DNA from: a virus
IMG/VR virus record: IMGVR_UViG_3300006749_000113
Span: 1-24,912 of that record
Reading direction: 5' to 3' (one strand)
DNA: 24,912 nt
The notes under the pieces are model-generated. The model was not told where the DNA came from. It did not search any database and saw only the letters and a program-made list of their open reading frames with translations. The first letter of the stretch is position 1; the number at the start of each line of letters is the position of its first letter. The position numbers and the translations under genes are program-made. Positions 2,558 to 24,410 of the stretch are shown one piece after another.

Positions 2558-2898
2558 GTTTACATGAATATGCTATTAAATATAGAAGTGCAGCTACACC
2601 TATAGAAAAAGGAATAAGTAGTGTAGGTTCAGGTCTTAAAAAAGCTGCTACTTCTGTTGGTGGTGCGATAGAAAAAACAGGGTCTTATCTTGGAGCTATG
2701 GTATCAAAACCTACTATGGATGTGCCTAAAGCACAACAAGAGTTAGATAATAAAATTAAAAAACAAGAAGACGCATTTTTACAAGAAATGCAAACAGCAA
2801 GACGAAGAACAGCATTTGGTACAACAAATACATTACTTGCAACAAGTGTTGCTGGTGATGAATCTGTAGCTAATGTTAAATCAGCACTTTTAGGATGA
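2554..2898 (+). CDS. small head-module protein of unknown function
   Basis: The 114-residue product is not recognised with certainty. The first half (about 15-50) is rich in Gly, Ala and Ser with amphipathic character; 57-85 is a charged, probably coiled helix (KAQQELDNKIKKQEDAFLQEM). The end, RRRTAFGTTNTLLATSVAG then VKSALLG, has the same layout as the end of the protein encoded at 3320-3541 (RRTRGFAGMIATSAQG, VKPMLG). Small proteins with such a tail often sit just before the portal gene in T7-like marine phages. The gene overlaps both neighbours by ATGA and is surely cotranslated. A virion or assembly role is inference from position. Confidence 0.65.
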   Translation: MSLHEYAIKYRSAATPIEKGISSVGSGLKKAATSVGGAIEKTGSYLGAMVSKPTMDVPKAQQELDNKIKKQEDAFLQEMQTARRRTAFGTTNTLLATSVAGDESVANVKSALLG

Positions 2899-3320
2899 TA
2901 GAAACAGTTTTTACGAACGAACAAAAAGCAAACTATTATAAGTTTATGATATCTAAAGCTGAAGTAAATTTTGATTTGCATTCATCAAGCTATATAGGAT
3001 TTAAAGAAAACGATAAAATAATAGGTGCAATTTTTTTTTCTAATTATGACAAACATAATGTATTTATTCACATTGCATTTGATACTCCTAGGTGTGTATC
3101 TCGTAAACATATCAAGCTAATGTTCAACTATATATTTAATCAACTTAATTGTCGTAGAACTACTGCAACTTGTGACAGTGAAAACAATAGAGTACAAAAA
3201 CTTATAGAAGGTGTTGGTTTTACACAAGAAGGTTTAATAAGAAAAATGGTAGCTATTAACAATAAAGAAATAGATGTTATCATATATGGCATGTTAAAAA
3301 ACGAATGTAGGTGGATATAA
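2895..3320 (+). CDS. GNAT-family N-acetyltransferase
   Basis: The 141-residue product fits the GNAT fold, which transfers acetyl from acetyl-CoA to an amine. A central strand GAIFFSNYD (about 45-53), then a helix with RKHIKLMFNYIF, lead to CDSENNRVQKLIEGVGFTQE (about 92-111), the typical RimJ/RimL-like end in which the Asn and helix are followed by GF and a change of strand; the C-terminal strand DVIIYGMLK closes the domain. The target is unknown: host proteins, virion proteins or a small molecule are all possible. It overlaps the preceding gene by ATGA and the next by TAATG. A run of nine T at 3031-3039 lies in the frame but does not break it. Confidence 0.82.
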   Translation: MIETVFTNEQKANYYKFMISKAEVNFDLHSSSYIGFKENDKIIGAIFFSNYDKHNVFIHIAFDTPRCVSRKHIKLMFNYIFNQLNCRRTTATCDSENNRVQKLIEGVGFTQEGLIRKMVAINNKEIDVIIYGMLKNECRWI

Positions 3321-7840: not shown

Positions 7841-8419
7841 ATGGCAACAGAAGTTTCAATATGTTCAAATGCACTTAGAAGATTAGGAGATGACCCTATA
7901 ACTTCGTTGACAGACGATACAGAAAGAGCAAGACTTTGTAATGCTTTTTATGCAGATACAAGAGATTCTTTGTTAAGAAGTCATCCTTTTAATTTTTCTA
8001 TTACTAGAGCATCACTTACACAATTATCATCAACACCAGCTTACGGTTTTGCATATCAATATGCTTTACCAACAGACCCTTATTGTTTGAGGGTGTTACA
8101 AATGGAGTATCAAGACTATATATTTAAAATAGAAAATCTTGCAACTGAAGGTAGAGTTTTGCTAACAGATGAAAGCACTGCAAAAATATTATATATAGCA
8201 AGAATAACAGACACAGCTTTGTTTGATTCTTTATTTACAGATACACTTACATCGTATCTTGCAGTCAAATTAGCATATCCTTTAACCAACAGTGTAAAAT
8301 TACAGGAGCAAATGTATAAGCTGTATCAGCTTAAACTTTCTGAAGCAAGAAGTGTTGATGGGCAAGAAGGATTTATTGACGACCTTGTTTCAGATACATT
8401 TATTGAATTTAGAAAATAA
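7841..8419 (+). CDS. tail tube protein A (T7 gp11-like adaptor)
   Basis: The 192-residue protein matches T7 gp11 (196 residues), the adaptor ring that binds the portal and carries the tail nozzle. The start VSICSNALRRLGDDPITSL (5-23) followed by ERARLCNAFYADTRDSLLRS (28-47) and HPFNFSITRA is the typical head, and PTDPYCLRVLQM (about 77-88) the usual centre. A GAGG at 7832-7835 precedes the ATG and follows the hairpin directly. It ends in a TAATG overlap with the gene for tube protein B, its partner in the tail. Confidence 0.93.
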   Translation: MATEVSICSNALRRLGDDPITSLTDDTERARLCNAFYADTRDSLLRSHPFNFSITRASLTQLSSTPAYGFAYQYALPTDPYCLRVLQMEYQDYIFKIENLATEGRVLLTDESTAKILYIARITDTALFDSLFTDTLTSYLAVKLAYPLTNSVKLQEQMYKLYQLKLSEARSVDGQEGFIDDLVSDTFIEFRK

Positions 8420-10896
8420 TGGCTAGAGTACATCCTATACAATCTAATTTTACTACAGGTGAAGTCACACCTAAATTAGCAGGTCAAGTTAATTTTAAAA
8501 AATACGACAATGCTCTTGAAACATTAGAAAATATGACAATATTTCCACAAGGTGGTGTAACACGTAGACCAGGTACAAGATTTGTTGCTGAAGTAAAAGA
8601 TTCATCAGCAGTAACTAGATTAATACCTTTTGAATTTAATGTTACACAATCTTATGTTTTAGAATTCGGCAATAACTATATAAGATTTTATAAAGACAAC
8701 GGACAAATTACAGAAGCAGACAAAAGCATTAGCAATATTACACAAGCAAATCCAGCTGTAGTTACAGCAAGTTCTCATGGTTTTAGCGATGGCGACCATG
8801 TATGGATAAACAGTGTAGCTGGTATGACAGAATTAAATGGCAGAAGATTTACAGTAGCTAATAAAACAACACATACTTTTGAATTATCAGGCATAAATTC
8901 TAGTTCTTTTACAGCTTATAGTTCTGGTGGCACAGCAGCAAAAGTATATGAAATATCTACTTCTTATACATCAGCACAAGTATTTGATTTAAAATTTGCA
9001 CAAGCAGCAGATGTTATGTATATAGTGCATCCATCACATGAACCTGCAAAACTTACAAGAACAGGACACACATCATGGTCACTTGCAGATGTAGATTTTG
9101 AAAAAGGACCATACTTAGATACTAATACTACAGCTACTACATTAAATCCAGGGTCGTCAGGTGTTGGCACAGGAGTTGCATTAGTAGCATCTGCAGATTT
9201 ATTTGCATCGACTGATGTAGGTAGACTTGTAAAATTACATGGTGGACATTGTAAAATTACAGCTTTTACAGATGCACAAAATGTAACGATGTCTATATTG
9301 ACAGCCTTATCTGCTAGCACAGCAACAGCAGACTGGCAGTTAGGTAGTTGGTCAAATACAACTGGTTTTCCAGAAACAGTATCTTTTTTCGAACAAAGAA
9401 TAGTTTATGGTGGTACAACAAGTTTGCCACAAACTATTTTTGCTTCACAATCTGGATTATTTGAAAACTTTGATGTAGGAACAAGCACTGCATCTGATGC
9501 ATTTATTTATACTATTGCATCTAACAGAGTAAATAAAATTAGATTTTTAGCACCTTCACGTGATTTAATTGTAGGTACAGCTGGTGGTGAATTCAAAGTA
9601 GGTAGACCACCAGGTGAACCGTTAGAACCAGGCAATGTTAATATATCGCAACAAACTACATACGGAGTTCATACAACACCTGTTGTGCAAATAGGTAATG
9701 CTTTGTTATTTGTGCAAAGACAAAAAAGAAAAATACGAGAATTTACTTACACATTTTCTAACGATTCTTATGTAGCACCTGATATGACTTTATTATCAGA
9801 ACACATAAGTGAAGGTGGCATAGACGATGTTGCATACCAACAAGAACCTGATAGTGTTTATTGGGCATGTCGTAACGATGGGCAACTAATAGGCATGACA
9901 TATCTTAGAGAACAAGATGTAGTTGGATGGCACAGACATAAGGTAGGTGGTATATCACAATCATGTACGGTAACTGTTACAGATTACGATAACACAGTCT
10001 CTGGCACAAAATTAACATTTACAAAAAGAGATGGGTCTACTGTTACATTTACATCTACAACAGGGACTGCAGGAACAAATGAATTTAAAACACAAACTAA
10101 TAACAATACCACAGCAAGTAATTTACAAACTGCAATAAATGGACATGCTGATTTTACAGCGACAGTATCTAGTGCAGTTGTAACTGTTACAGAAACTTCA
10201 CCTTCTGGTACAGAATATTTAACTGTAGAAAGTTCTGATGATGTACGATTAAGTATTACAAGTGAATTACCAGCTAAAGTTACTAGCATAACAACAATAA
10301 CTGAAACTGATGAAAATCAATTTTGGGCATTAGTTACTAGAATTATAAATGGTTCTACAGTACAATATGTAGAATATTTTGACGATACACTAAATCAAGA
10401 TTCTGGACTAGCAGGAACAGTTACAGGAGCATCTACAATAGTTAGAGGATTAAATCATTTAGAAGGCGAAACAGTACAAATACTTATAGATGACGCAGTG
10501 TACCCTGTGCAAAAAGTTACTGATGGTGCTGTTACAATAAGTTTGCCAAGTACTTTTTCTAGCAAAACTATAGAGATAGGTTTAGGGTTTGTATCAACTA
10601 TGAAAACATTAAAAGTAGAATCAGGAACACAAGCAGGTAGTGCGCAAGGCAGAAGAAAAAGGTATAATGAAGTTAGCGTTCGTTTACTTAATTCAGTAGG
10701 TGTAACTGTAAATGGCGACCAAATACCATTTAGAAGTTCAGCAGATGAAATGGGTAAACCAATACCAGCGTTTACAGGAGATAAAAAAGTTTCCAATTTA
10801 GGTTGGGACACTGATGGACAGATTACTATAAAACAGGAACAACCATTACCATTAACTGTTTTAAGTTTGACTGGAACATTAGTAGCAAGTGATTAA
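8419..10896 (+). CDS. tail tube protein B (T7 gp12-like nozzle) with inserted domains
   Basis: The 825-residue protein forms the nozzle of the short tail, below the adaptor ring. Family marks are NFTTGEVTPKLAGQVNFKKY (10-29), ENMTIFPQGGVTRRPGTRF (37-55), FFEQRIVYGGT (about 324-334) and the propeller part with DVVGWHRHKVGG (about 500-511) and FWALVTRIINGSTVQYVEYF (about 635-654). Two insertions stand out. Residues about 108-172 resemble the E1 FCCH-like fold common in phage tube proteins (VVTASSHGFSDGDHVWI, GMTELNGRRFTV). Residues about 516-614 are a Thr/Ser-rich beta domain placed between two conserved propeller strands. It has no strong ribosome site and starts by TAATG coupling to protein A. 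Confidence 0.93.
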   Translation: MARVHPIQSNFTTGEVTPKLAGQVNFKKYDNALETLENMTIFPQGGVTRRPGTRFVAEVKDSSAVTRLIPFEFNVTQSYVLEFGNNYIRFYKDNGQITEADKSISNITQANPAVVTASSHGFSDGDHVWINSVAGMTELNGRRFTVANKTTHTFELSGINSSSFTAYSSGGTAAKVYEISTSYTSAQVFDLKFAQAADVMYIVHPSHEPAKLTRTGHTSWSLADVDFEKGPYLDTNTTATTLNPGSSGVGTGVALVASADLFASTDVGRLVKLHGGHCKITAFTDAQNVTMSILTALSASTATADWQLGSWSNTTGFPETVSFFEQRIVYGGTTSLPQTIFASQSGLFENFDVGTSTASDAFIYTIASNRVNKIRFLAPSRDLIVGTAGGEFKVGRPPGEPLEPGNVNISQQTTYGVHTTPVVQIGNALLFVQRQKRKIREFTYTFSNDSYVAPDMTLLSEHISEGGIDDVAYQQEPDSVYWACRNDGQLIGMTYLREQDVVGWHRHKVGGISQSCTVTVTDYDNTVSGTKLTFTKRDGSTVTFTSTTGTAGTNEFKTQTNNNTTASNLQTAINGHADFTATVSSAVVTVTETSPSGTEYLTVESSDDVRLSITSELPAKVTSITTITETDENQFWALVTRIINGSTVQYVEYFDDTLNQDSGLAGTVTGASTIVRGLNHLEGETVQILIDDAVYPVQKVTDGAVTISLPSTFSSKTIEIGLGFVSTMKTLKVESGTQAGSAQGRRKRYNEVSVRLLNSVGVTVNGDQIPFRSSADEMGKPIPAFTGDKKVSNLGWDTDGQITIKQEQPLPLTVLSLTGTLVASD

Positions 10897-10898
10897 TT

Positions 10899-11348
10899 AT
10901 GGGTTGGGCAATAGGATTAGCAGCAGCAGGATTAGGGTTATCGTTTTTAGGAATGATGCAACAAAGGCAACAAATTGCTAAAATGACAGACTACAGAACA
11001 AAACAAAATGCTTTTAATGCAAGTGTAGCTAGAGAAAAAACACTGAAAAAAAATGAAATTTTTAATAAGCAATTAGCAAGTAGATTAAAAGGTGTTGGTT
11101 TTAGCGGAACACCAGCAGAAATAGCAGCTTATGAGTATGAAGAAATGAAACAAACTTTAGACACTTTTGCAGTTAGTGAAAGTTTAACAGCTGCTTTTTT
11201 AGCAGCAGATGCACAAAACAAACAAGGACAAGCATTATCTGGATTTGCAGCAACAAGTTTGAACTTACTAGGTGGTTATTATCAAACAACAAAACAAGAA
11301 GAATTTTATGACAAATTATCAACTAGACAGGACACAGTGAAAGAATGA
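10899..11348 (+). CDS. internal virion protein, T7 gp14-like
   Basis: The 149-residue product opens with a Gly/Ala-rich hydrophobic stretch (WAIGLAAAGLGLSFLGMM, 3-20), followed by a long charged helix (about 21-60), then SRLKGVGFSGTPAEIAAYEY (about 61-80) and a final hydrophobic stretch ALSGFAATSLNLLGGYY near 119-135. This is the form of the first ejected core protein of T7-like phages (gp14), which inserts into the host outer membrane and forms the start of the DNA-transfer channel. It is shorter than T7 gp14 (196). Position after gp12 and before the two long core proteins supports the call. It overlaps the next gene by ATGA. Confidence 0.8.
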   Translation: MGWAIGLAAAGLGLSFLGMMQQRQQIAKMTDYRTKQNAFNASVAREKTLKKNEIFNKQLASRLKGVGFSGTPAEIAAYEYEEMKQTLDTFAVSESLTAAFLAADAQNKQGQALSGFAATSLNLLGGYYQTTKQEEFYDKLSTRQDTVKE

Positions 11349-13414
11349 GTATTAAAGTACCTAAAAGACCTAGTCAAACTAGCCCAGCAGTAACTTTGCA
11401 AGGGACACCTACAATGAATGTGCAATCTGGTTTTACAGAATTAGGTAAAGCAGTTGGTCAAATAGGTTTACGAATTGCAGACCATAATGCTAAAGTAGCA
11501 AAAACAAATTCTTTGCTAAAAATAGATTCAGAATTAGTAGAATATGAATCAGAAATATTAAGAAAAATAAACGATTTTAGAAAAGCACAAGATGAAGGTG
11601 TATACTCTTTAAGTCCAGACGGTAAATTTTTAGACCCAAATAAAGCCCTTCGAGATTACGATGCAGACATGAACAATTATTTAATGGAACGTTCTAATAC
11701 AATGTCACCAGGTGCAAAAATGAAAGGTCTTGGTGCATTGCAACATAAAATAGAAAAAGGTAGATTTCAAATACAAGAAAATGTAACTAGAGATGTAAAA
11801 AAAAATAATCGTATATCTTTAAATCAAAGTCAAAATGTTTATATGTCTGATTTGGCATCAGCACAAACAATCGAAAATGCACAAGTCTATGCTGCAAAAC
11901 AAATAAATATGGCAGATGCTTCTTTTGCTAACAATGCTTTAACTGCACAAGAATATACAAATAAAAAAAAGAAATACGAAAATCTTTATTTAGATAATGC
12001 ATTAAGAATTAGTTCTGGTAGTTCTGACCCAAATGACCAACTTGTATATTTAATTAATGGTGGAAAAGTAGAAGGCATACAAGGAGATGAATTAGAATCT
12101 GGAGATGAAAGATATATTGATTTATTCGACCGTGTCAATAAAAAAGCAAAGATTACAAAACAAGCCATAGGAAACATACAAGACAATTTATTTATAAAAA
12201 CGCAAAATCAAATAGAAGAAAAATTAAAGAGTATAGGTCCAGATGCATCACTAGAAGAAATAGACAAAGCACTAAATGATGTTGAAGATATTTTAGAAGG
12301 TTCTAATTTAACTTCTGATAATTACAAAAAATTACAAACTTTTGCAGATAATTATTACGATGACAGTTTAGCTTCTGAAAGAGTATATGAATCATTTTTA
12401 ATTTTTGCAGAATCAGGTGGTTTGCGTGGAGATATGTTTACTAGAGCAATAGAAGCAAATACTGACGGTCTTTTAAGTAGTCAAAAATTAACACGTTTAA
12501 AAGAAATACAAGCTGAAAATTTTAAATTAATTAAAAAAGCAGAAACAAAATCATTAACTGCTCAATATAAATTTATTGCTGATATGACAGGTGGAAATAA
12601 AGCTTTAATAAATGAAAAAAATACAGAGGATGGCACTTTTAGTTTTGGGGTAAAATATAGCAGAAAAACACTTGAAGCTTTTAATTTATACAATAAATTA
12701 ATGTTAGAAGCTGACAGAAATGGAATTAATCATGAAACTTTTGTCAATACAAAAGCAAAATTTTTAGGGTCAGATAAAGCAATGACACCTGCTGAGTTTG
12801 TAGTACAAACTATTAATAGCAGAGCGCCACGTGAAGATTTACAAAATAATGAGAATATCCCTATATTAGGAGATGACTTGTATAATTTAAGAATAAATGA
12901 AGCTGAGTTGTTTGAAAAAGATGGAATCTATTATAAAAAAGATGCTAATGATATTATACGTATAGATATGCTTGAAACTATTAAAAAAAATGAACCAATG
13001 TTAAATTTGTTAAGTACGAGAAGAATACTTAGAGTTGATATGGGTGCAGATGGTATACCTATAGAAATAAAAGAATCACCAGAAAAAGTTGCTAATAGAC
13101 TTAATTTTTATAAATATTTAAAAACAACTAAAATTACAGAAGACCAATTAGATGCAGTTGCAAATATGTTTAACATTGATTTGCTTACTGAATTACAAGA
13201 AATGGAAAGTAATGAGGCAATCCTACAAGGTGTTGGTATAAGACAAGGTGTAAAAACAAACCGTAAGCCAGAAAAAACAATGGCTGAATCTAATTTAATT
13301 AATGAAGCTATGAGAAGACCAACAGAACTTAAAAAATCAGTTGATGAAATGGAAGAAAGTGCAGAAATGGAAGTATTACAAGAAGGTGGAGAAGTTTTTA
13401 GGAGATTAAGATAA
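11345..13414 (+). CDS. internal virion protein, T7 gp15-like
   Basis: The 689-residue product is largely alpha-helical and polar, rich in Lys, Asn, Glu and Gln, with no signal peptide or membrane segment. It lies between the gp14-like and giant proteins, so it corresponds by place and size to T7 gp15 (747 residues), an ejected core protein of the channel across the periplasm. The start SIKVPKRPSQTSPAVTL is a short basic, Pro-containing arm; the following SGFTELGKAVGQIGLRIADH (about 28-47) is a helix also seen in the start of phage core proteins. Sequence alone would not prove the function; gene order does most of the work. Its ATG overlaps the gp14-like stop. Confidence 0.72.
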   Translation: MSIKVPKRPSQTSPAVTLQGTPTMNVQSGFTELGKAVGQIGLRIADHNAKVAKTNSLLKIDSELVEYESEILRKINDFRKAQDEGVYSLSPDGKFLDPNKALRDYDADMNNYLMERSNTMSPGAKMKGLGALQHKIEKGRFQIQENVTRDVKKNNRISLNQSQNVYMSDLASAQTIENAQVYAAKQINMADASFANNALTAQEYTNKKKKYENLYLDNALRISSGSSDPNDQLVYLINGGKVEGIQGDELESGDERYIDLFDRVNKKAKITKQAIGNIQDNLFIKTQNQIEEKLKSIGPDASLEEIDKALNDVEDILEGSNLTSDNYKKLQTFADNYYDDSLASERVYESFLIFAESGGLRGDMFTRAIEANTDGLLSSQKLTRLKEIQAENFKLIKKAETKSLTAQYKFIADMTGGNKALINEKNTEDGTFSFGVKYSRKTLEAFNLYNKLMLEADRNGINHETFVNTKAKFLGSDKAMTPAEFVVQTINSRAPREDLQNNENIPILGDDLYNLRINEAELFEKDGIYYKKDANDIIRIDMLETIKKNEPMLNLLSTRRILRVDMGADGIPIEIKESPEKVANRLNFYKYLKTTKITEDQLDAVANMFNIDLLTELQEMESNEAILQGVGIRQGVKTNRKPEKTMAESNLINEAMRRPTELKKSVDEMEESAEMEVLQEGGEVFRRLR

Positions 13415-13415
13415 T

Positions 13416-16400
13416 ATGGCATTAACAGTTACTCCAACATATTTGGAACTTAAACAGGCTGGTGTTGATGAAGATACAGCTCTTAAAATTACTGATAACA
13501 CACAAAAACAATTAAAACAGGAAGGTTATACAGAAGAACAAGCAGCTGCAAAAACAGGGCTACAGTCCTCATCTCTTGACAATGTTGTAGATAATGAAAT
13601 TCTTACTACAAACCAAGAATTAGGAATTTTTCCTGATTACCCTACTAAAGATTTTAATGATGTTGTCACACAAAACATAGAAAGAAAAAAAAATAAAATA
13701 AAAGCTGACAAAGATAAAGTATTTGAATCAGAACAAAAGCAAATGGAAAGATTCAAAGCTTTTAAAACTACTGATATAAGTCAAAAAGACATATCAGAAA
13801 GTTATGGTATAAAAAAAGAAAAAGTTTTTATTACAGATGGTCATCAAAGTTTTACTGATTACATTAAATTTTATGGAAATTATTCACCTTCACAAAGAGA
13901 CAATTTAACAACATATGCTTCTAGTATTGCCTCTCTTTTGAGTAACAGTAAATTTAAATACGATTCAAGTAGCACTAATGCAGGTTTGTTTTCAATAAAT
14001 ACAACTAATTCAGAATATCCTAATTATGTTGATAATTTAGTAAATGATTATATAAATTTAAGGAAAAAAGGCAATCTAGACTTTAAATTAGATGGTGAAA
14101 TATTAGATTTAAAAAATGGCATGTCACCTACTGCTCTTAGCACAAAAGCAAGTTTTGAGTTATTTGCTGCATTTCTTTTAGAAAACCATGGAAAAGATTT
14201 AGACAATCTTGCAAACGGCGATTTAGAAACAAAACAAGCTATTTTAAAATCATATATTGGTGAAAAAAGATTTGAAAAATTAAGTGAAGAAGCTTTAGGT
14301 ATTTTTGAAAATTCTGAAACAATTAAAACCCGAAAAGATTTCGAAGATGATAAATACATTTACACTTATGGAACAGCAAGAAATGCTATTTTTCCTAAAT
14401 CATTACCAAGTTTTTTTAAATACGTTGCACCAAATCTTACTAGCATTTACGAAAGCGATGTTTACCAAGGTTGGCTTAATGCAATTAGTTCATCAGGCGA
14501 TTTTAGCGAAACAGACTTAGCGTTAAATAGTACTTTTTTTGGCAAGGCTCTAAATGCAGCATTTGGTGAAAACCCTAAAGAATTTCAAGATTTTGTAAAT
14601 AAAAGAAATCTACTTGACAAAGGTGGAGCTGCTTTATATCATGGTATGCTTTATTACGGGTCATCTGCTCCAATATATAGTTTTCCTGCAACTTTATTAA
14701 CCAGATTAGGAATGCCTCTTGCAGCTGCATATTCAAGTTTTGCTGTTGAACATGCATTGACAGCAGGTATGGGTAGATTAGTTTCTAGTGGTTATTTTGA
14801 TAACAGCAATGCTACTGTTAATGATGCTTTAGGAATATTAGCCGATTTGTATACTGATAAAGAATTTCTTTATGAAAATGCAAAATACGGTGGTTTAGGC
14901 TTAACAACACATTTCGGTGGTCAGTTAATGTTTCATAAATTTTTACAAAAAGGCAAAGAATATAAAGTTACTGTTAACTACCAAGGCAAACCTACAGAAA
15001 TGAGTTACATCTATGGTGGAAAACAATTTGAAAAAAGATTAGGGTTAGATTTGCAAAAAAATCCAAAATACACTGGTAAAGATACATGGGAAATGGGTAA
15101 ACAAATAGATGATTATTTTGATTCCCAATTAAAAGCTAGATTTGGACATGAAAAAATACCGCGTTTAGGAAGCGAAGAACTTTCAACAAATATAGGAAGT
15201 GTATTTGGATTAAGTATAGGTAATTCTTTGTTTTTTAATGAAAATCCTGTAGATGCTACTATAGATGCTGCATCTTTTGTAGGCTCTCTTTTTATTGTTA
15301 AAAAATTGTTTGGAGCAAATGTTAATAATGGTCAGAAAAAAACAACATATGATTATACTAAGAATGGCTTAGATTTTTATAATCCTAAAAGTGAATATAG
15401 AAGTGATTTACGTTATATATTAAACGGTCAACAAGGGCCTAAATATTATGAACATGAATCAGCACTAGATAAATTTCATGATGCAGTAGGTGTTACTAAC
15501 AATCCTATATATAGCGCACCTTTAAATGAAAAATTACCTGACAACACTGGCAAAATAGTTGCTGACCAAGTTATAACAGAAAAAGGAAATTCTTTTGTAA
15601 TTACAGAATCTACATTGAAAGGTGATAGTTATACATCAATAGAACCATATGAAAACATTGTTACAGTTCCTCATCAATTAATTGCAGAATTAAACAGACA
15701 ACCTAATTTTTTATATAAAGCAAAAATATTACAAGAAGATGGTCAAACTAATTCTATTAATTTTATTGATAACCCATTAGAATCTAAGGATGGCATTATA
15801 TTTTCAAATAAAAAAAAGCGTACTACTAAATATCCAGAGTTACCTACTGGTATTACAACTAAAATTTCTGACACTTTTGATGAGATTATTCGTATACAAA
15901 ACAGTGTGTTTGCTAATCGTGAATATTTTAAAGAAACATTAGTAGAATTTGCTGGCGATTTTTATCCACGATTAGCAGAATATACCACAGAAACAAATTT
16001 AAGAGGAAATGTAACAACTTTAAATGTTGACGATTTAAATTATGGTGACGGTGTTTTTAATATAGACTATATTACAACTGGACAATTAAGCATAGGCGAA
16101 GAAACAACAGGATTAGTTTTTGTAAAAATAGATGGTCGTGGTTACGCTTTTCCTGAAAAAATGTTAAAAGAATTAACAACAAAGTATAAAAAAGGAATAG
16201 AAGGAGTTGACCCTGTTATTGCTAATCCAGAAAAAAGTTTAGTAGAACCAGTAGGGTTAGGTAAAAAAGATGTTCTTGATGTATATGGTGTATATAAAAA
16301 ATCTGATTTAAAAGACCATAAATTACATGCTGCAGATTCTGATGTTATAGCATTGGTAGTAGAAGTTAATGGGCAACCTATAGCTAAATTAGCACCTGTA

Positions 16401-19400
16401 GAAATTAACAATCAAATGCGTAAACAAATTGATATGATAGAAGAGATTATTACTAAACCAATTGAATCAATAAAATTAAATAAGTTAACCGACCAATCTA
16501 ATAATAATAAAGTAGATATGCCTGTAACAGGCACACATAAAGAAGCAGCACATAATAAAGAAAATATGCCAGATAAATATGTTGAGTTTTTTAGTCAAGA
16601 AGTATCTGGATTAGACTTATTAGATGGTTATATTTTAGCAGAAACTTTAAATGTAGGTTCATTAATTTTTCGAGATATGGGAGGCACAGGCTACGCAGGA
16701 GTATACAGTCCTAGTGAAAATCGAATAGAAGTAAACTTAGATTTAACTGACTATACTAAACTTGAACCTGCAGTTTTGTTTGACAAAATAAGAACTTTAT
16801 TTCACGAATTATCACACAGAGAAGCTGATATTCTTACACTAAGCAGAATGACAGACAAAGACAAAGTAGACATGGTAAATACCTGGATTAAAATATTACC
16901 GAAACTTCAAACCAATGAATTTGATTATGGTTTTCCTGCAGACATAAATGAAACTAAAATTAAAAAAGCTGTAGATAAAATTGTAAAATTAGCACAAGAA
17001 TCTGATTTAGGTCAAATAGATAAAATATTAAAAGATAAATATGGCATGTTCTCATATACTGACATAGAGCGATTTATGAAAAACAGAGATTGGGAGAAAG
17101 ACCCTGACATTAAAGATGCTATGGATGCGTTATTAAAAAGAAAAGGTATGGGTCGTGGTAATATCTTTGGTTTTATATTTAGAAAAAATAATTTTATAGC
17201 TGAAATAGTAGATAAAGACGGTATGCCGTTAGAAAATCTGTACGATTTAGAAGCTATGCAAAAAGCTGCTTTTGAACAAGCTCAAGTTCAATTACCTTTC
17301 ATACAAGAACAACTAATAGCTTTTGGTTTTGACCAACAAGTTACAGTAGAAAGATTGCAAAAATTTTTAGTGGATGAAGTGCAAGCTAGAAAACATTTGC
17401 CATATGATGTTTGGCGAAAATTTAACAATGCAGACGAATCAGTTAAAAGTCAAATAGTTGTAGATGTTATAAAAGGTATTATGCCAGAACATTTAAAAAT
17501 AGTTGTAGAGCGGGTAAATAAAGAAATATTAGAACAAGTAGAAGGTGTACCTATAAGCATTACAGATGTTGCATCTATCGAATTAACAAATTTAATGCAA
17601 AAACATATGCTTGAAAATGGTATTTATACTTTAGATGCAATAGCAAGAGAAGCTTATAATGTTAGCTTGTATGCACGACCATTATATGGAAAATTTAAAG
17701 CTGAAGTTGAAGAAGCTTATCAAGTATTAACTACAACTTATGAAAACTTTTTTAAAAATTTTAAAATAGAATTACAAGGTTATGAAAATTATGACCCTAT
17801 AAAATGGACAGGAGATGATTGGATAACTCTTACTAGACTTACGGAAAAAGATATCGAAGCCATCAAAAAAATACCTGGAGTTCCACAAAATGTTTTAAAT
17901 CAAGTTTATAAAACAAGCTATAAATTCGAAGCAGAAAGACTAGCTAAAGACTTTTCACCATCACAATTAAAAAAAATTAAAAATCATGTTAAATCTTTAG
18001 GCAAAGTAGAAACATTTGTATTTTTTCAGGAAGCATTTGGAGGACCAAGACGTGGTCAAGGCCAGGAAGAAACATATAATATTTATAACTATAGAAGAAG
18101 TGGAGAAGAAGTGTGGGCAGACCTTTTAAGCATGCTAATGCTTCAACCAGCAAAAACCAAACAACTTGCTCCTAATGCAGTTGAGTTAATATATAGAAAC
18201 TTAGATGCAAGGCCAGAGTTTAAAGAATTTTTTGAAGAAAGTGTTATGGGAATGACACCATTAGGCCAAGACAGGTTGTTAACTGCTCTTTTTCAAAATG
18301 CTAAATTAACAAAAAAAGCCAAAAAAACTTTGTTAGAAAAAATGAAAACAGTTATGGAAAAAGCAGACAAATTTAAAAATCCTGATTACAGAAATTTATG
18401 GCTTATGACTAAACTCAATAGTGCTTTTGCACACTCAGAACATTATATTAGATACGGTGCTGGTAGACCTGGTCCATTACAAGATATAGAAAATTGGAAT
18501 CCAATAAGACAAGAATATGAAGGTTTAAATTTAGCAGACATGACTAAAATGAAAATAGACGATTTAAAATATATAGAAACAGTTCAAAATAATTTAGATG
18601 CTAAAGTTACTTTAGAAGTAATAGAACCATTAACAGTAATTGCTAACGAAAACGGAATACCATATGAAGTTTTTGAAAGTTATCTTGTAGCTAAAAGTGT
18701 TATTGCTACACAAAAACATCAACTTCAAAAACGTACACCTATGTATTTATTGTCAGAAGCAGGTTTTACTCAAGAACAAATTGAAGAATTTAGAAAGGCT
18801 TTTGGTGACAATTTTAGGACTTTAGAAGCAGTAGTAAAAAGATTCGAAAGTCAAGATGCGCCTCACATACAAAAGGCTATACAAATACTTAATAATTTTA
18901 CAGGACGAATTACAAAAGATTTTATGACTACTTATATGTCTAATCAAACTTTGATTTCAAAAAAAGAATTTGACAGATGGTTAAACGAACCAGACTATGT
19001 TGCATTAGCATCTTTTGACAAAGCATTAGAAAATTTAGAGAAAGGAGTTATACCTTTTAGTAAAGGCATAGCTATGAAAAAAAGAACTAAAAATGGCATG
19101 GAAGGTGTTTCTTTATTTCCAATAGAATTAACAGTTTATAAGTTAAAAGTTCTACTGAATATGCATAATGAAAACGAATTAAAAAAAATTCAATTTAGTC
19201 CACATCCTTACGATGGTTTTGCAGAAGCAGCAAAAGCAGCTGGTATGAATAAAAGCGGATATTTAGATACAGCATATGTTGAAGAAATGATGGAATGGTA
19301 CAAGACACATGACGGCAAAAGAGGTTTTTTCTGGGAAAAGGAACAAATAGCAGAAACTTTAAATGTTGGACTAGGTGACATTTTTCCATATTTTATTCCT

Positions 19401-21968
19401 GGTAAATTTTTAAAAGGTAGAATTAAAACATCATTTGAAAATAAACAATTAGTTGAAATAGCAGAACAATATGCACAAGATTTAAAAAGGTTTGACATAG
19501 AAACTTATATGATGGATGGACCTCTAGAAACAGCAAACAATCGCAATAAATTATTTGAGCAATTTAAAGCTAAATATGAACAGGTTTTAGAGGCATATAA
19601 GAAAAAAATTGTTGATTCGCCAGCAAGAGTTCGTATGGCAAAAAAATCAGTCAAACCAATTGAAAAAGTAATTAGGGCTAGAACTTACGAAAATGGAAAC
19701 GATGGATTGTTGGAATATTACGAAAGTCTACCACCAAGCAAAAAAGTCTTAATGAAGTATGTAACATTGTCAGGTAAAGATAGACAAAGAAATGCACAAT
19801 TTAAAAAAGAAGGCGAGCTTGTAGTTATTGTCAAGGATATAGAAGTAACTTATGAAAAGACTGAAGATGTTGCAAAAGAAGGTAAAAAAGTAGTATCAAT
19901 GCGTCTTCCTAAACAGGAATACATGATTGACAAGGCCACAAAAACAAGAGTACCTACTGGCAGATATTCTACTACGGGTGAAATAGAAACAGTTAGAGTA
20001 GTTGTATCAGATTTGGCACGTACTGATTTAAATTTTGACCCACCTAATATAGCAGAAAGAATTACAACTTCTATAGCTAGTATATTCCAAAGAGCATTAA
20101 CAACACAAAATGCTGGTTTTATACTTATGAATGGTGTTTTAGATTCTGGTACAATTTCTATACAAAATTTAGGCTATGACAATGTAATTTTTCCTAAAGG
20201 TATAAAGTGGACAGAAAAAGAATACAAGTTAGGTGGTTATAAATTTAGATTGCCAAAGAACTTTAAGAAAGAAAGCACATCTTATTTTATTGAATTAAAT
20301 GAATCTCTAAAAGATAATTATAAATTAGTCTTTGACAAAAATACTATTAAATACTATGAAAAAGCAGTTTATGCACAAGGTTTAGTTTTACCTTATACAG
20401 AAAGAAATGTATATAACACAGATATTAGAACTGTAATAGCAAATGATGCAGATTTAAAAAGTTATATGGAACAGCTAGAAATTGTTAAGAAAGCATATGA
20501 TGGCGATTTACATAAATGGTATGTAAGCACACCAGCATATTTAATGGCACAAATAAAAAACTATTTTGCAACAGTAGAAAAAGCAAACAAAGTGGTTGAG
20601 TTGTCTACTAAAGAAGCAAATTATAAATATTTACATAAAGAAACTAAACTTACACCATTACAAATAAAACAAAGAGTTAGAAATGTTGGAGTTGATTTTA
20701 CAGATGTGCAACCTTGGATGACTAATCTGCAATTTATTTTTCCGTTTTCTAAAGTTATAAACACAATATTTAAAAATTCTTACTATGATTATGAAAGAGA
20801 TATTAATGAAGGTAAAACAAGACAAACGCCTTTTGGAAAAATTCCTGAAGCTAAACGTCTTTCTAACTTATTGTATCTGAGTATGGGTCTTGTCGTTTAT
20901 GATTTGTTATCTGACTATGGATTTTTAGGTCAAGAGTATAAATACAAAAGAGGTTATATTGACCCATTTACTCACACAAGTAGTTTGACCATTTCAGGCA
21001 ATGCCTCGATTAATGAAGCAGGAGGTGTTGAAGTTGACCAATACAGCATACCTTTACCTTTTCAGGTTGTATTTGCGAAGCTATGGATAGATTCTTTCAT
21101 AAGACCTATGTTTAAAAAAGCAGCAGAAATAATAGGAACTATAGAACCTGGTGAAATGGATTTTAGAGATAAAGGAATACCTTTCTTTGGAGGAAGTGGT
21201 CCGAATGTGGCTAGACCTGAAACGTATATTTTTAAACAAATTCCATTTAATACAAGTGCAGGTGGGGCGTTAAAAATAATATTAGACGTTGCAAGTCCAG
21301 GTCACGAAATTGAACATTCTCTAACAGGCCAAGCATATATGGACAAAGCTTTTGCTGATGCAGCAGAAGGCAAAGGATTATTTAGTAAATATTATTTTGA
21401 ATACTTAGTGGCTAAATTAAAAACCATTGTTAAGATGAATGCACCATCGCAATTTTCTTTTATGACAAATTACGATATAAATAAAAAGGGAACAACTTCA
21501 CGAGGAATGAAGGATGTTCCTGGGGGTGCTGCTCTTGCTCCTTTCTTTAGAAGTTCAGAAATAGATTACGGTTTAACTGGTTTAGCTAAACAACAATATA
21601 TAAGAAGAGCTGAGAAAAAAATAGATAGACGTATTGTATTGCAAAAATATTTTGGAGGAAATAGTTTGTCTAAAACTGAATACAATGTTTTAGCAGAGTA
21701 TATGATTAACGCAAAAGAAAAACCATTTTTAAGACAAATGCTAAAAAGTAAGTTTGGTTCTAAGTTTGACAAACAATTAGACTTGATATTAAAAGCACCG
21801 TCACGAAACGAAATGCTAGAGCTGTTAAGAAGGCAACGAAAAAGTATTTCAGGTTTATCTATAGACGCAGAAAAAAATGCTGATGAGATTAAAACAAAAT
21901 CTAATTATCAGGAGAGAAAGAAAACAGACAGAGTAGATAAGGATTATTATTTCGATTTACTCAAATAA
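13416..21968 (+). CDS. giant internal virion protein, T7 gp16 position, with zincin motif
   Basis: The 2850-residue product lies where T7 has gp16 (1318 residues), and is probably packed in the head and ejected into the host. Residues 170-196 (ASLLSNSKFKYDSSS, AGLFSIN) resemble the soluble lytic transglycosylase core, but N177 stands where the catalytic Glu is expected. A strand-like GVYSPSENRIEVNL (1095-1108) precedes HELSH at 1130-1134, a zincin motif; YRRSGEEVWADLLSML (about 1560-1575), with AD at 1568-1569, resembles the downstream element carrying the third metal ligand in phage polyvalent peptidases. Residues about 2225-2515 (F2235, N2239, D2243; VDF at 2426-2428; PF at 2443-2444) recall the LPD38 domain. 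Hydrophobic stretches are at about 405-460 and 2485-2506. GGAG at 13401-13404 precedes the ATG. Position call is strong; domain calls are inference. Confidence 0.78.
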   Translation: MALTVTPTYLELKQAGVDEDTALKITDNTQKQLKQEGYTEEQAAAKTGLQSSSLDNVVDNEILTTNQELGIFPDYPTKDFNDVVTQNIERKKNKIKADKDKVFESEQKQMERFKAFKTTDISQKDISESYGIKKEKVFITDGHQSFTDYIKFYGNYSPSQRDNLTTYASSIASLLSNSKFKYDSSSTNAGLFSINTTNSEYPNYVDNLVNDYINLRKKGNLDFKLDGEILDLKNGMSPTALSTKASFELFAAFLLENHGKDLDNLANGDLETKQAILKSYIGEKRFEKLSEEALGIFENSETIKTRKDFEDDKYIYTYGTARNAIFPKSLPSFFKYVAPNLTSIYESDVYQGWLNAISSSGDFSETDLALNSTFFGKALNAAFGENPKEFQDFVNKRNLLDKGGAALYHGMLYYGSSAPIYSFPATLLTRLGMPLAAAYSSFAVEHALTAGMGRLVSSGYFDNSNATVNDALGILADLYTDKEFLYENAKYGGLGLTTHFGGQLMFHKFLQKGKEYKVTVNYQGKPTEMSYIYGGKQFEKRLGLDLQKNPKYTGKDTWEMGKQIDDYFDSQLKARFGHEKIPRLGSEELSTNIGSVFGLSIGNSLFFNENPVDATIDAASFVGSLFIVKKLFGANVNNGQKKTTYDYTKNGLDFYNPKSEYRSDLRYILNGQQGPKYYEHESALDKFHDAVGVTNNPIYSAPLNEKLPDNTGKIVADQVITEKGNSFVITESTLKGDSYTSIEPYENIVTVPHQLIAELNRQPNFLYKAKILQEDGQTNSINFIDNPLESKDGIIFSNKKKRTTKYPELPTGITTKISDTFDEIIRIQNSVFANREYFKETLVEFAGDFYPRLAEYTTETNLRGNVTTLNVDDLNYGDGVFNIDYITTGQLSIGEETTGLVFVKIDGRGYAFPEKMLKELTTKYKKGIEGVDPVIANPEKSLVEPVGLGKKDVLDVYGVYKKSDLKDHKLHAADSDVIALVVEVNGQPIAKLAPVEINNQMRKQIDMIEEIITKPIESIKLNKLTDQSNNNKVDMPVTGTHKEAAHNKENMPDKYVEFFSQEVSGLDLLDGYILAETLNVGSLIFRDMGGTGYAGVYSPSENRIEVNLDLTDYTKLEPAVLFDKIRTLFHELSHREADILTLSRMTDKDKVDMVNTWIKILPKLQTNEFDYGFPADINETKIKKAVDKIVKLAQESDLGQIDKILKDKYGMFSYTDIERFMKNRDWEKDPDIKDAMDALLKRKGMGRGNIFGFIFRKNNFIAEIVDKDGMPLENLYDLEAMQKAAFEQAQVQLPFIQEQLIAFGFDQQVTVERLQKFLVDEVQARKHLPYDVWRKFNNADESVKSQIVVDVIKGIMPEHLKIVVERVNKEILEQVEGVPISITDVASIELTNLMQKHMLENGIYTLDAIAREAYNVSLYARPLYGKFKAEVEEAYQVLTTTYENFFKNFKIELQGYENYDPIKWTGDDWITLTRLTEKDIEAIKKIPGVPQNVLNQVYKTSYKFEAERLAKDFSPSQLKKIKNHVKSLGKVETFVFFQEAFGGPRRGQGQEETYNIYNYRRSGEEVWADLLSMLMLQPAKTKQLAPNAVELIYRNLDARPEFKEFFEESVMGMTPLGQDRLLTALFQNAKLTKKAKKTLLEKMKTVMEKADKFKNPDYRNLWLMTKLNSAFAHSEHYIRYGAGRPGPLQDIENWNPIRQEYEGLNLADMTKMKIDDLKYIETVQNNLDAKVTLEVIEPLTVIANENGIPYEVFESYLVAKSVIATQKHQLQKRTPMYLLSEAGFTQEQIEEFRKAFGDNFRTLEAVVKRFESQDAPHIQKAIQILNNFTGRITKDFMTTYMSNQTLISKKEFDRWLNEPDYVALASFDKALENLEKGVIPFSKGIAMKKRTKNGMEGVSLFPIELTVYKLKVLLNMHNENELKKIQFSPHPYDGFAEAAKAAGMNKSGYLDTAYVEEMMEWYKTHDGKRGFFWEKEQIAETLNVGLGDIFPYFIPGKFLKGRIKTSFENKQLVEIAEQYAQDLKRFDIETYMMDGPLETANNRNKLFEQFKAKYEQVLEAYKKKIVDSPARVRMAKKSVKPIEKVIRARTYENGNDGLLEYYESLPPSKKVLMKYVTLSGKDRQRNAQFKKEGELVVIVKDIEVTYEKTEDVAKEGKKVVSMRLPKQEYMIDKATKTRVPTGRYSTTGEIETVRVVVSDLARTDLNFDPPNIAERITTSIASIFQRALTTQNAGFILMNGVLDSGTISIQNLGYDNVIFPKGIKWTEKEYKLGGYKFRLPKNFKKESTSYFIELNESLKDNYKLVFDKNTIKYYEKAVYAQGLVLPYTERNVYNTDIRTVIANDADLKSYMEQLEIVKKAYDGDLHKWYVSTPAYLMAQIKNYFATVEKANKVVELSTKEANYKYLHKETKLTPLQIKQRVRNVGVDFTDVQPWMTNLQFIFPFSKVINTIFKNSYYDYERDINEGKTRQTPFGKIPEAKRLSNLLYLSMGLVVYDLLSDYGFLGQEYKYKRGYIDPFTHTSSLTISGNASINEAGGVEVDQYSIPLPFQVVFAKLWIDSFIRPMFKKAAEIIGTIEPGEMDFRDKGIPFFGGSGPNVARPETYIFKQIPFNTSAGGALKIILDVASPGHEIEHSLTGQAYMDKAFADAAEGKGLFSKYYFEYLVAKLKTIVKMNAPSQFSFMTNYDINKKGTTSRGMKDVPGGAALAPFFRSSEIDYGLTGLAKQQYIRRAEKKIDRRIVLQKYFGGNSLSKTEYNVLAEYMINAKEKPFLRQMLKSKFGSKFDKQLDLILKAPSRNEMLELLRRQRKSISGLSIDAEKNADEIKTKSNYQERKKTDRVDKDYYFDLLK

Positions 21969-21998: not shown

Positions 21999-24410
21999 AT
22001 GGCAATATCAACAACAATAATTAAGAATAGTTACAGTGGAGACGGGTCTAATGATACCTTTGCATACCAGTTCAAGATAGCTGCAGATGCAGACATACAA
22101 GTTATTATTAGGTCATCTACTGGTGCAGAAACTGTTAAGACCCTTACTACACATTATACAGTGACAGGTGCGGGAGTTGCAACTGGCGGTAATGTAGTTT
22201 TTGAATCTGGACACATACCTACAGCTACTGAAACAGTAGTTATAAGAAGAAATACAACACAGACACAAACACTTGATTTAGTAGAAAACGACCCATTTAC
22301 AGCAGATTCTGTAGAGGGTGCATTTGACAAAAACCTTGCAGCTATACAAGAGCTACAAGAGCAGGTTGACAGGTCATTTAAAGTATCAAGAACTAATACA
22401 ATATCATCATCAGAGTTTACAGACAATGCTACTACAAGAGCTGGCAAGACATTAGGATTTGATTCATCAGGTGATTTGACTACGGTTGCAGACTTCTTAC
22501 CAGCAGGTGGAGATTCAGCATTATTTAAATACTCAACAACTACATCAGAGGCAGACCCAGGAGCTGGTGTATTCAGAATGAACAACACTACATTTTCTAA
22601 TGTTACAGAGCTTTACATTGATGATGCTGATTTAAACGGCTTAGATGTTGCAGCATGGGTACAATCTTTTGATGATGTGTCTGGCAACGATACCAATAGA
22701 GGTCGTATCAGAATACAAAATGCAGGAACATTAACATCTTATATTACATTTAAAGTAAGAGGTGCAGTATCTGACGAAACTGGATATACAAAAGTATTAG
22801 TAACTCACATAGCATCAAACGGCACACTAGCTAATGATGCAAAAGCATTTATATCTTTTGTACCTAGTGGTGAAGATGGTGCAATACCAGGATATTTCTA
22901 TAAGTTTGATACAGGCACAAGTGATGCAGACCCTGGAGCAGGAGAGATAGCATTTAATAACGGAACATATGCTTCAGTAACAAGAATATATATAGATGAT
23001 GCAGATGCAAATGGTGTTACTACTTCTACAGATGTTTTAACATGGGATGATAGCACATCTACAATTAAAGGATATTTACATATAGTAGACATAAATGATG
23101 CTAGTACATATGCAAGATTTTCTATTACAGGCACTAGTACAGATGGTAGTGGTTATAACACATTAGTAGTTACACATATAGCATCAAACAATACCTTCTC
23201 AGCAGCAGATGAGTTATCAGTACACTTTAGCAGAAATGGTGATAAGGGTGATACTGGTTCTACTGGTAGCACAGGGTCTACTGGTAGTACAGGAGCAACT
23301 GGTGCAGCTGGTACAAACTCACAATTATCTATGACATTTGAAAGCACAACCTCTGATGCTGACCCAGGTGCAGGTAAGATTGCATTTAACAATGGCACAG
23401 TATCTAGTGTAAATGTACTCTTTATAGATGATGCAGATGATGCAGGTGCAGATATATCTGGTTATGTGCAGAGCTTCGATGATGTATCTAATACAGTAGC
23501 AAGAGGAATAATAACAGTAACAAAAGAAGGTACAGCTAGTACCTTTGCTACATTTAAAGTTAGTGGTGCTGTTACAGATGCAAGTGGTTACACTAAAGTA
23601 CCTGTTACTCATGTAGTAAGTAGTGGAACTTTCTCTGACAATGATGGAGTAGGAGTACACTTCAGTTATAGTGGAGCAGACGGAGCAGATGGTGCAGATG
23701 GTGCAGATGGCTCTGGTTCTATGTCAAGTTTTACTCTTGCAGGAGATAGTGGTTCTAATCAAACTATTGCAGATGGCAACACCCTAACTGTTACAGGTGG
23801 AGAAGGTATAGATACTGCTGCTAGTGCAACAGATACGATTACAATATCTGGTGAAGATGCAAGTACATCTAACAAAGGTGTAGCTCAATTCAGCTCAGAT
23901 AACTTTGCAGCATCGTCTGGAACTATAACAATTAAAGATGGTGGTGTAAACAATGATGAACTAGCAGGTAGTATAACAAATGCAAAACTTGCTACTCCTG
24001 GTTTAGTTGTGCAAGTAGTAACTGCTACTTCGACATCAACAAAATCTACAACAAGTACTTCATTTGTAGATACAAATTTAAGTGCTAGTATTACACCAAG
24101 TTCTAGTTCTAACAAAATTTTAGTTTTAGTACAAGGTCAAATGTTTATTAACACTGATGGTGGACAAGCAATAACAACTATATTAAGAGATACAACTAAT
24201 TTAGGAAATAGTGATAGAGGTATGATGCAACATACTGATTTTGAAGATAGATATCAAGGCAATGCTTCTATGATTGTTTTAGATTCTCCATCTACAACAA
24301 GTTCTACAACATATAAAGTTCAAATAAAAGTTTATAGTGGTAGTCATACTATTTTCTTTGGTGTTGATGCCACACCACAAACAATAACATTATTGGAGAT
24401 AACAGCATAA
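21999..24410 (+). CDS. tail fibre protein, T7-type N-terminus, repeats and collagen-like segments
   Basis: The 803-residue protein would bind the host surface. The N-terminus (TTIIKNSYSGDGSNDTFAYQF at 5-25, then NDPFTADSVEGAFDKNLAAIQ and QVDRSFKVSRTN up to about 133) is the T7 fibre tail-attachment domain (PF03906-like). Three related beta-repeats of about 115 residues follow (173-290, 299-413, 442-558), each with DADPGAG or EADPGAG, IDDAD and a TKVxVTH or NTLVVTH strand. Gly-X-Y collagen-like segments lie at 414-438 and 559-573. A common marine-phage fibre module (GVAQFSSDNFAASSGTITIK, about 625-644) leads to the C-terminal head (667-803), likely the receptor-binding part. GAGG at 21988-21991 serves the start. 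Confidence 0.9.
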   Translation: MAISTTIIKNSYSGDGSNDTFAYQFKIAADADIQVIIRSSTGAETVKTLTTHYTVTGAGVATGGNVVFESGHIPTATETVVIRRNTTQTQTLDLVENDPFTADSVEGAFDKNLAAIQELQEQVDRSFKVSRTNTISSSEFTDNATTRAGKTLGFDSSGDLTTVADFLPAGGDSALFKYSTTTSEADPGAGVFRMNNTTFSNVTELYIDDADLNGLDVAAWVQSFDDVSGNDTNRGRIRIQNAGTLTSYITFKVRGAVSDETGYTKVLVTHIASNGTLANDAKAFISFVPSGEDGAIPGYFYKFDTGTSDADPGAGEIAFNNGTYASVTRIYIDDADANGVTTSTDVLTWDDSTSTIKGYLHIVDINDASTYARFSITGTSTDGSGYNTLVVTHIASNNTFSAADELSVHFSRNGDKGDTGSTGSTGSTGSTGATGAAGTNSQLSMTFESTTSDADPGAGKIAFNNGTVSSVNVLFIDDADDAGADISGYVQSFDDVSNTVARGIITVTKEGTASTFATFKVSGAVTDASGYTKVPVTHVVSSGTFSDNDGVGVHFSYSGADGADGADGADGSGSMSSFTLAGDSGSNQTIADGNTLTVTGGEGIDTAASATDTITISGEDASTSNKGVAQFSSDNFAASSGTITIKDGGVNNDELAGSITNAKLATPGLVVQVVTATSTSTKSTTSTSFVDTNLSASITPSSSSNKILVLVQGQMFINTDGGQAITTILRDTTNLGNSDRGMMQHTDFEDRYQGNASMIVLDSPSTTSSTTYKVQIKVYSGSHTIFFGVDATPQTITLLEITA
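22515..23672 (+). repeat. three divergent ~350-bp repeats in tail fibre gene
   Basis: Units at about 22515-22880, 22893-23237 and 23322-23672 encode similar beta modules. Each opens with a Ser/Thr-rich strand, then (E/D)ADPGAG, an Asn-rich turn (NNTTF, NNGTY, NNGTV), an IDDAD motif, a Trp- or Gln-containing strand with FDD or WDD, and a VTH strand before a Phe-containing end. Unit 3 is closer to unit 1 in its middle (YVQSFDDVS against WVQSFDDVS) and to unit 2 in its start (SDADPGAG), so the copies may have exchanged pieces. Confidence 0.85.
23238..23312 (+). repeat. collagen-like Gly-X-Y segment 1
   Basis: Twenty-five codons with Gly at every third position (GDKGDTGSTGSTGSTG, then GATGAAG) follow fibre repeat 2. 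At DNA level the unit is a nine-base Gly-Ser-Thr repeat (GGTTCTACT, GGTAGCACA, GGGTCTACT). Such segments form a triple helix in trimeric phage fibres and are prone to change in length. Confidence 0.88.
23673..23717 (+). repeat. collagen-like Gly-X-Y segment 2
   Basis: Fifteen codons, GADGADGADGADGSG, follow fibre repeat 3; the DNA is a nine-base repeat of GGAGCAGAC/GGTGCAGAT. It joins the repeats to the C-terminal part of the fibre. The all-Ala-Asp triplets differ from the Ser-Thr triplets of segment 1, so the two arose separately or have diverged. Confidence 0.86.

Follow-up and report, generated by a model that had tools for sequence, protein, structure and literature searches.

The window analysed here, a stretch of 24,912 bases from virus record IMGVR_UViG_3300006749_000113, is a fragment of a pelagiphage-like podovirus, a marine virus of bacteria. 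Around its one giant ORF, PHROGs identify a large terminase, a portal (head-tail adaptor), a scaffold-like protein, the major head protein, tail tubes A and B and a tail fibre. The portal shares 75% identity with its counterpart in Pelagibacter phage EXVC032P Baldr, which has the same gene order and in which the slot of the giant ORF is occupied by gene 020, a 2329-residue 'hypothetical protein'. The genes from tube B to the fibre are as follows.

8419-10896, plus strand: tail tube B (nozzle) protein (PHROG 376, E 1.6e-195; 59% identity to Baldr)
10899-11348, plus strand: gp14-like ORF, 149 aa (by position; same place in relatives)
11345-13414, plus strand: gp15-like ORF, 689 aa, probable internal core protein (by position in the gene order only)
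13416-21968, plus strand: giant ORF, 2850 aa, T7 gp16 position (ORF call, PHROG-typed neighbours, Baldr gene order)
21999-24410, plus strand: tail fibre with gp17-like N-terminus (PHROGs 13893 and 1640)

From tube A through tube B and the gp14-like, gp15-like and giant ORFs to the fibre, the genes are arranged as T7 genes 11 to 17 are, which puts the giant ORF in the gp16 position. This assignment is positional: neither PHROGs nor Pfam gives a gp16 match, and the Pfam, PHROG and NCBIfam libraries place no domain in the protein. In a related pelagiphage, Skadi, three internal virion proteins resembling gp14, gp15 and gp16 have been described (PMC10504331). From the gene position, and by analogy with gp16 and the N4 virion RNA polymerase (vRNAP), we infer that the giant protein is probably packaged and ejected with the DNA.

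Other features of the window can be recorded alongside these genes. Past the terminase, at 1974-2557, lie three short and very Lys/Arg-rich ORFs (89, 47 and 52 aa), perhaps DNA-binding head proteins, and the gap between terminase and portal holds a 141-aa ORF (2895-3320) whose counterpart at the same place in Baldr is annotated 'putative acetyltransferase'. Residues 511-615 of tube B (about 9950-10265) do not align with Baldr although their flanks are well conserved, and may be a surface-exposed insert domain. The tail fibre (21999-24410) contains collagen-like triplets (GDTGSTGSTGSTGSTGATGAAG, DGADGADGADGS) and repeated DADPGAG...FNN units.

Conservation of the HExxH motif and a distant glutamate

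Within the giant ORF the following features can be placed.

13848-14402, plus strand: N-terminal domain, aa 145-329, a homologue of the transglycosylase-like domain found in Baldr-type relatives (HMM E 6e-30)
16533-18335, plus strand: predicted zincin-like metallopeptidase domain, aa 1040-1640 (AlphaFold2 model; HMM of relatives with the window left out, 119 bits over aa 1052-1622)
16698-16739, plus strand: GVYSPSENRIEVNL, aa 1095-1108, predicted sheet strands 2 and 3, ahead of the active-site helix (DSSP of the model, strands aa 1095-1098 and 1103-1107)
16803-16817, plus strand: HELSH, aa 1130-1134, on the active-site helix, with predicted zinc ligands H1130 and H1134 and predicted general base E1131 (85/85 conserved)
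16818-17129, plus strand: first insert, aa 1135-1238, from HExxH to LLKRKGMGRGNIFG, nearly absent in Baldr-type relatives (alignments)
17130-17171, plus strand: LLKRKGMGRGNIFG, conserved GN..G motif (alignments)
17685-18080, plus strand: second insert, about aa 1424-1555, ahead of the third-ligand helix (alignment)
18084-18122, plus strand: YNYRRSGEEVWAD, conserved YR....E..A[DE], with E1565 (18108-18110) the predicted third ligand (Y1559, R1560, E1565 and A1568 each 86/86 in relatives)

An earlier, sequence-only reading of this DNA had proposed a zincin-type metallopeptidase from three elements of the 2850-residue protein in the gp16 position, and each lies where it was said to lie: HELSH at residues 1130-1134, the GVYSPSENRIEVNL strand ahead of it, and a later element carrying a third ligand (SGEEVWAD, aa 1562-1569) and followed by APNAVE (aa 1585-1590). 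That reading had left the third ligand as E1564 or E1565; the candidate is now E1565, 435 residues past the first His, because the E1564 column is variable among relatives.

An HExxH motif by itself is weak evidence, and it is conservation that decides. By composition 0.027 such motifs are expected in a protein of 2850 residues, at least one appears in 2.9% of shuffles, and the giant ORF has two, at aa 1130 and aa 2630. The latter, HEIEH (window 21303-21317), is absent at that position from complete relatives such as L138, L166 and L169; being unconserved, it was set aside as a second site and is probably due to chance. At aa 1130, the columns of H1130, E1131 and H1134 read H, E and H in all 85 relatives with a residue there, and Glu fills the E1565 column in 86/86, as invariant as Y1559, R1560 and A1568; for these counts all matches were aligned with no selection on the motif, gaps being fragments or misaligned inserts. 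That the HExxH at aa 1130 has itself arisen by chance in a helical virion protein, a reading to which the unconserved second copy lends something, is refuted by the alignment: HExxH and the distant YR....E..A[DE] occur in every complete member, the profile score points the same way, and we give chance next to no probability. Loss of HExxH in close relatives, named beforehand as grounds for abandoning the idea, was not what we found, the motif being kept as HEMMHVID (L166), HEFMHIID (L169), HEIGHADQ (L077/L138), HEIGHMEQ (L131) and HELGHLID (Baldr).

The profile score comes from an HMM built on 47 relatives with the window left out, which scores 119.4 bits over aa 1052-1622 (E 1e-33 for 100,000 sequences); on 200 shuffled copies the best score of the same HMM was 8 bits. 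Single sequences reach much less. A tblastn search of the whole protein against phage records returned nothing at 1e-5 because the relatives are only about 21-25% identical, IMG/VR scans with the single protein (whole, or its HELSH region) gave no confirmed relative, and a scan of genome contigs gave one weak locus; the relatives were instead reached by scanning with neighbouring genes and with family alignments. The Baldr protein, which carries HELGHLID and RDSPAELMAEF, shows only local matches to the window protein, with E 1e-6 (aa 1239-1422) and 4e-5 (aa 1557-1624), and a pairwise MAFFT alignment of the two misplaces HELSH because of the insert, an error that intermediates in the alignment put right. 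PHROG 87, annotated 'metallo-protease', picks out 7 of the 48 members (best 1.2e-5) and leaves the window protein itself unmatched, and the Pfam SprT-like, M48 and M78 families fall below threshold.

All 23 gp16-slot ORFs with a complete domain carry HE[IL][GS]H and a later R....E..A[DE]; this set, which includes Baldr, two Baldr-type loci and the window, comes mostly from an IMG/VR scan by tube B alignment, with no selection on the motif. A second scan, by domain alignment, reached more distant phages using patterns around both motifs and so favours members that retain them, a bias from which the tube B survey and the tail-fibre survey described below are free, and in those two surveys HExxH is kept in every complete peptidase-positive ORF. 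In eight homologue pairs dN/dS is 0.15-0.45, and the domain is thus under purifying selection in the lineages of those pairs, the window itself having no pair close enough for the estimate.

The space between first His and Glu is far more variable than the residues themselves: it takes 66-84 residues where the domain is most compact, 199-217 in the Baldr type, 330-335 in L077/L131 and 435 in the window, whose inserts are the longest among the members seen. The window is also unusual just past the motif, where it reads HELSHREAD, with Ala at +3 and Asp at +4, against HE[IL]GHxxD in most relatives.

Predicted fold

Overall, we confirm the observation of a conserved metallopeptidase motif in the giant ORF, and the structural models support the zincin-type reading of it. 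An AlphaFold2 model of aa 1040-1640 built from 48 sequences is of moderate confidence as a whole (pLDDT 68, pTM 0.54) and of higher confidence in its core (HExxH blocks 79-89, E1565 block 87). The modelled elements run from a helix through three strands (aa 1082-1086, 1095-1098 and 1103-1107) to a long helix bearing HExxH (aa 1118-1143) and, later, to a helix that begins at E1565 (aa 1563-1576), an order that in the model is of zincin type. A HExxH helix with no partner ligand was the other result that would have counted against a peptidase; what the model gives instead is a HExxH helix past a three-stranded sheet, and E1565 opening the later helix. With HExxH on a helix, a helix and sheet ahead of it and, by model order, the third ligand on a later helix, the domain is, on its sequence and predicted fold, of the gluzincin plan, in which Glu is the third ligand.

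Compared with the PDB by Foldseek, the 601-aa window model finds no match because long, low-confidence helices dominate it; its weak viral matches include one SprT-like protease (probability 0.87). A compact homologue, L137, is modelled much better (pLDDT 80, pTM 0.80), and nearly all of its best 30 PDB matches are zincin peptidases, among them the lethal factor peptidase domain, ArdC (6i89), a putative metal-dependent hydrolase and PPEP-1, with probabilities up to 0.98 and weak E-values (best 0.047).

Long and short forms of the gp16-slot protein

Scanning with the tail-fibre N-terminus, which is independent of the motif, and examining the ORF upstream of each fibre, we found two forms of the gp16-slot protein. 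The peptidase is present in 21 distinct complete ORFs, HExxH in every one, and absent from 32. The long form is about 2250-2850 aa, with 2251-2809 aa in the peptidase-bearing ORFs of this survey apart from one of 1236 aa, which is the latter half of a split frame; the short form is 1116-1886 aa, and all 32 of its members lack the peptidase. Among loci whose fibre N-termini are 98% identical, L166 and the window have the long form (2809-2850 aa), and L163, L164 and L167 the short form (1324-1408 aa). Residues 495-860 and 1730-2069 of the Baldr protein correspond to about 108-477 and 795-1136 in short forms; since these flanks are common to both forms, the peptidase segment is the part missing between them. 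The peptidase is an all-or-none module of one virion-gene slot, present in only some close relatives, and it always lies within the giant protein, no locus seen having it as a separate gene. In L060 the giant ORF is divided between adjacent frames (13589-16648 and 16652-20359) right before the peptidase domain, by sequencing error or by a natural split.

Long forms also carry the N-terminal domain, in 20 of 21 ORFs against none of the 32 short ones. Its motif, ES.NRN...G.FQ, is like that of lytic transglycosylases, and its profile matches phiKZ gp144 at an E of only 0.8; we offer the transglycosylase identity as a guess at the level of the motif. The Glu of that motif is present in all ten Baldr-type sequences aligned, and its column holds Leu175 in the window, Val in L118/L121 and Ser in L077, a pattern suggesting that the hydrolase has been lost repeatedly while the peptidase stays. 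Because the peptidase residues persist where the hydrolase seems to have lost its Glu, a role limited to releasing that hydrolase is argued against.

Possible roles and comparison with known systems

From the conserved residues and the modelled fold we consider it very likely that the window encodes a virion protein with a zincin-type peptidase domain that is intact and functional, a judgement that concerns the domain and leaves its substrate aside. The likely enzyme is an active Zn endopeptidase, in which H1130, H1134 and E1565 would hold the zinc and E1131 would activate water. Packaged in the virion and ejected with the phage DNA, the giant protein could then be cleaved by its own peptidase, as could its gp14- and gp15-like partners, either together with it or in its place. 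Such cleavage might free domains for different compartments, as has been proposed for the peptidases of polyvalent proteins. If the enzyme is active, this self- or co-cleavage is our leading guess by analogy, at somewhat below an even chance, and cleavage of a host protein is a close second.

An ejected effector that cuts a host protein concerned, say, with defence, stress response or the envelope, and is not mainly a processing enzyme, is the strongest of the rival readings, if less likely than not. All-or-none presence at 98% identical fibre N-termini is easier to reconcile with an accessory effector than with a core function in assembly, effector peptidases are among the fold neighbours, and the option is listed by Iyer et al. 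2017 (PMC5512222); against this, the peptidase is confined to the giant protein in every locus seen, and no host target or specificity motif is known. We think it improbable that the peptidase instead acts in the periplasm at entry, where it and the N-terminal murein hydrolase-like domain would help the ejectosome across, the peptidase by cutting envelope proteins or lipoproteins. The co-occurrence of the two domains in 20/21 long and 0/32 short ORFs would fit, but the window keeps the peptidase residues with Leu in the N-terminal Glu column, so that the two do not seem functionally tied, and the transglycosylase assignment is itself a motif-level guess.

Still less probable, in our estimation, is a pseudo-enzyme, its fold retained as a scaffold and its zinc site either structural or a relic. 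HELSHREAD in place of the HE[IL]GHLID of most relatives, the very long inserts and a neighbouring N-terminal domain seemingly without its catalytic Glu could all be read in this way, but relatives that have diverged widely all keep E1131 and the three ligands unchanged, and a scaffold would have no need of the catalytic Glu of HExxH. Returning to an active peptidase, one can speculate, at rather long odds, that pelagiphage-type podoviruses exchange a protease-plus-hydrolase cassette in the gp16-type protein, near-identical virions delivering a protease or not into the same host. In the lineage of the window the protease would have been kept and greatly enlarged and the catalytic residue of the hydrolase lost, which would point to a host-directed protease.

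The ejection core proteins of phages on abundant marine bacteria are mostly annotated 'hypothetical', and many contain what appears to be an intact zinc peptidase. Close relatives that lack just the peptidase module provide a natural comparison for the role of an injected protease, a question also left by N4 vRNAP and by polyvalent proteins.

The window protein shares with T7 gp16 its gene position, probable ejection and, in relatives, an N-terminal transglycosylase-like segment. T7 gp16 has 1318 aa and no peptidase; the window protein is twice as long and carries one. Baldr gene 020 (2329 aa) occupies the same slot with HELGHLID and RDSPAELMAEF, but the aligned peptidase domains are only about 21% identical, and Baldr has neither long insert and keeps its N-terminal Glu. 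ArdC, the antirestriction protein of plasmid R388 (PDB 6i89), is a fold neighbour of L137 (rank 3, with a weak E of 0.06) and likewise pairs a metallopeptidase domain with transfer by a mobile element, although it is a small plasmid protein with an ArdC N-terminal domain. Domain C1 of the N4 virion RNA polymerase (structure preprint PMC12633501) is, like that of the window, a HExxH domain in a giant ejected podovirus protein, the best studied of those that carry one, but it is fused to RNA polymerase, and no sequence match between it and the window was found.

The closest likeness is to the polyvalent proteins, as the sequence-only reading had aptly suggested. Iyer et al. 2017 (PMC5512222) predicted in phage-type polyvalent proteins a zincin-like MPTase with the order helix, three strands, HExxH helix, Glu helix, and proposed that these domains process the polyvalent protein into its functional pieces, with host proteins as possible targets for some of them; they also note that N4 vRNAP is packaged unprocessed, so that self-cleavage is not general. 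The domain shares with these MPTases that element order, variable inserts between the last two helices and a place in a huge multidomain virion-side protein, here 2850 aa lying between tail tube and tail fibre. It departs from them in the 435 residues between first His and Glu and, from one common phage subtype, in lacking Asp three residues past HExxH and, in the strand region of the family alignment, a conserved His at the end of strand 2. Its setting differs too, a gp16-slot protein in which no RNA polymerase, ART or methylase domain was detected, the degenerate transglycosylase-like N-terminus being the only other candidate for a catalytic domain seen in the window protein. Judged by the published description of the plan, the window domain is best placed as a variant of the polyvalent-protein MPTase plan, one whose context, 435-residue spacing and missing +3 Asp are new.
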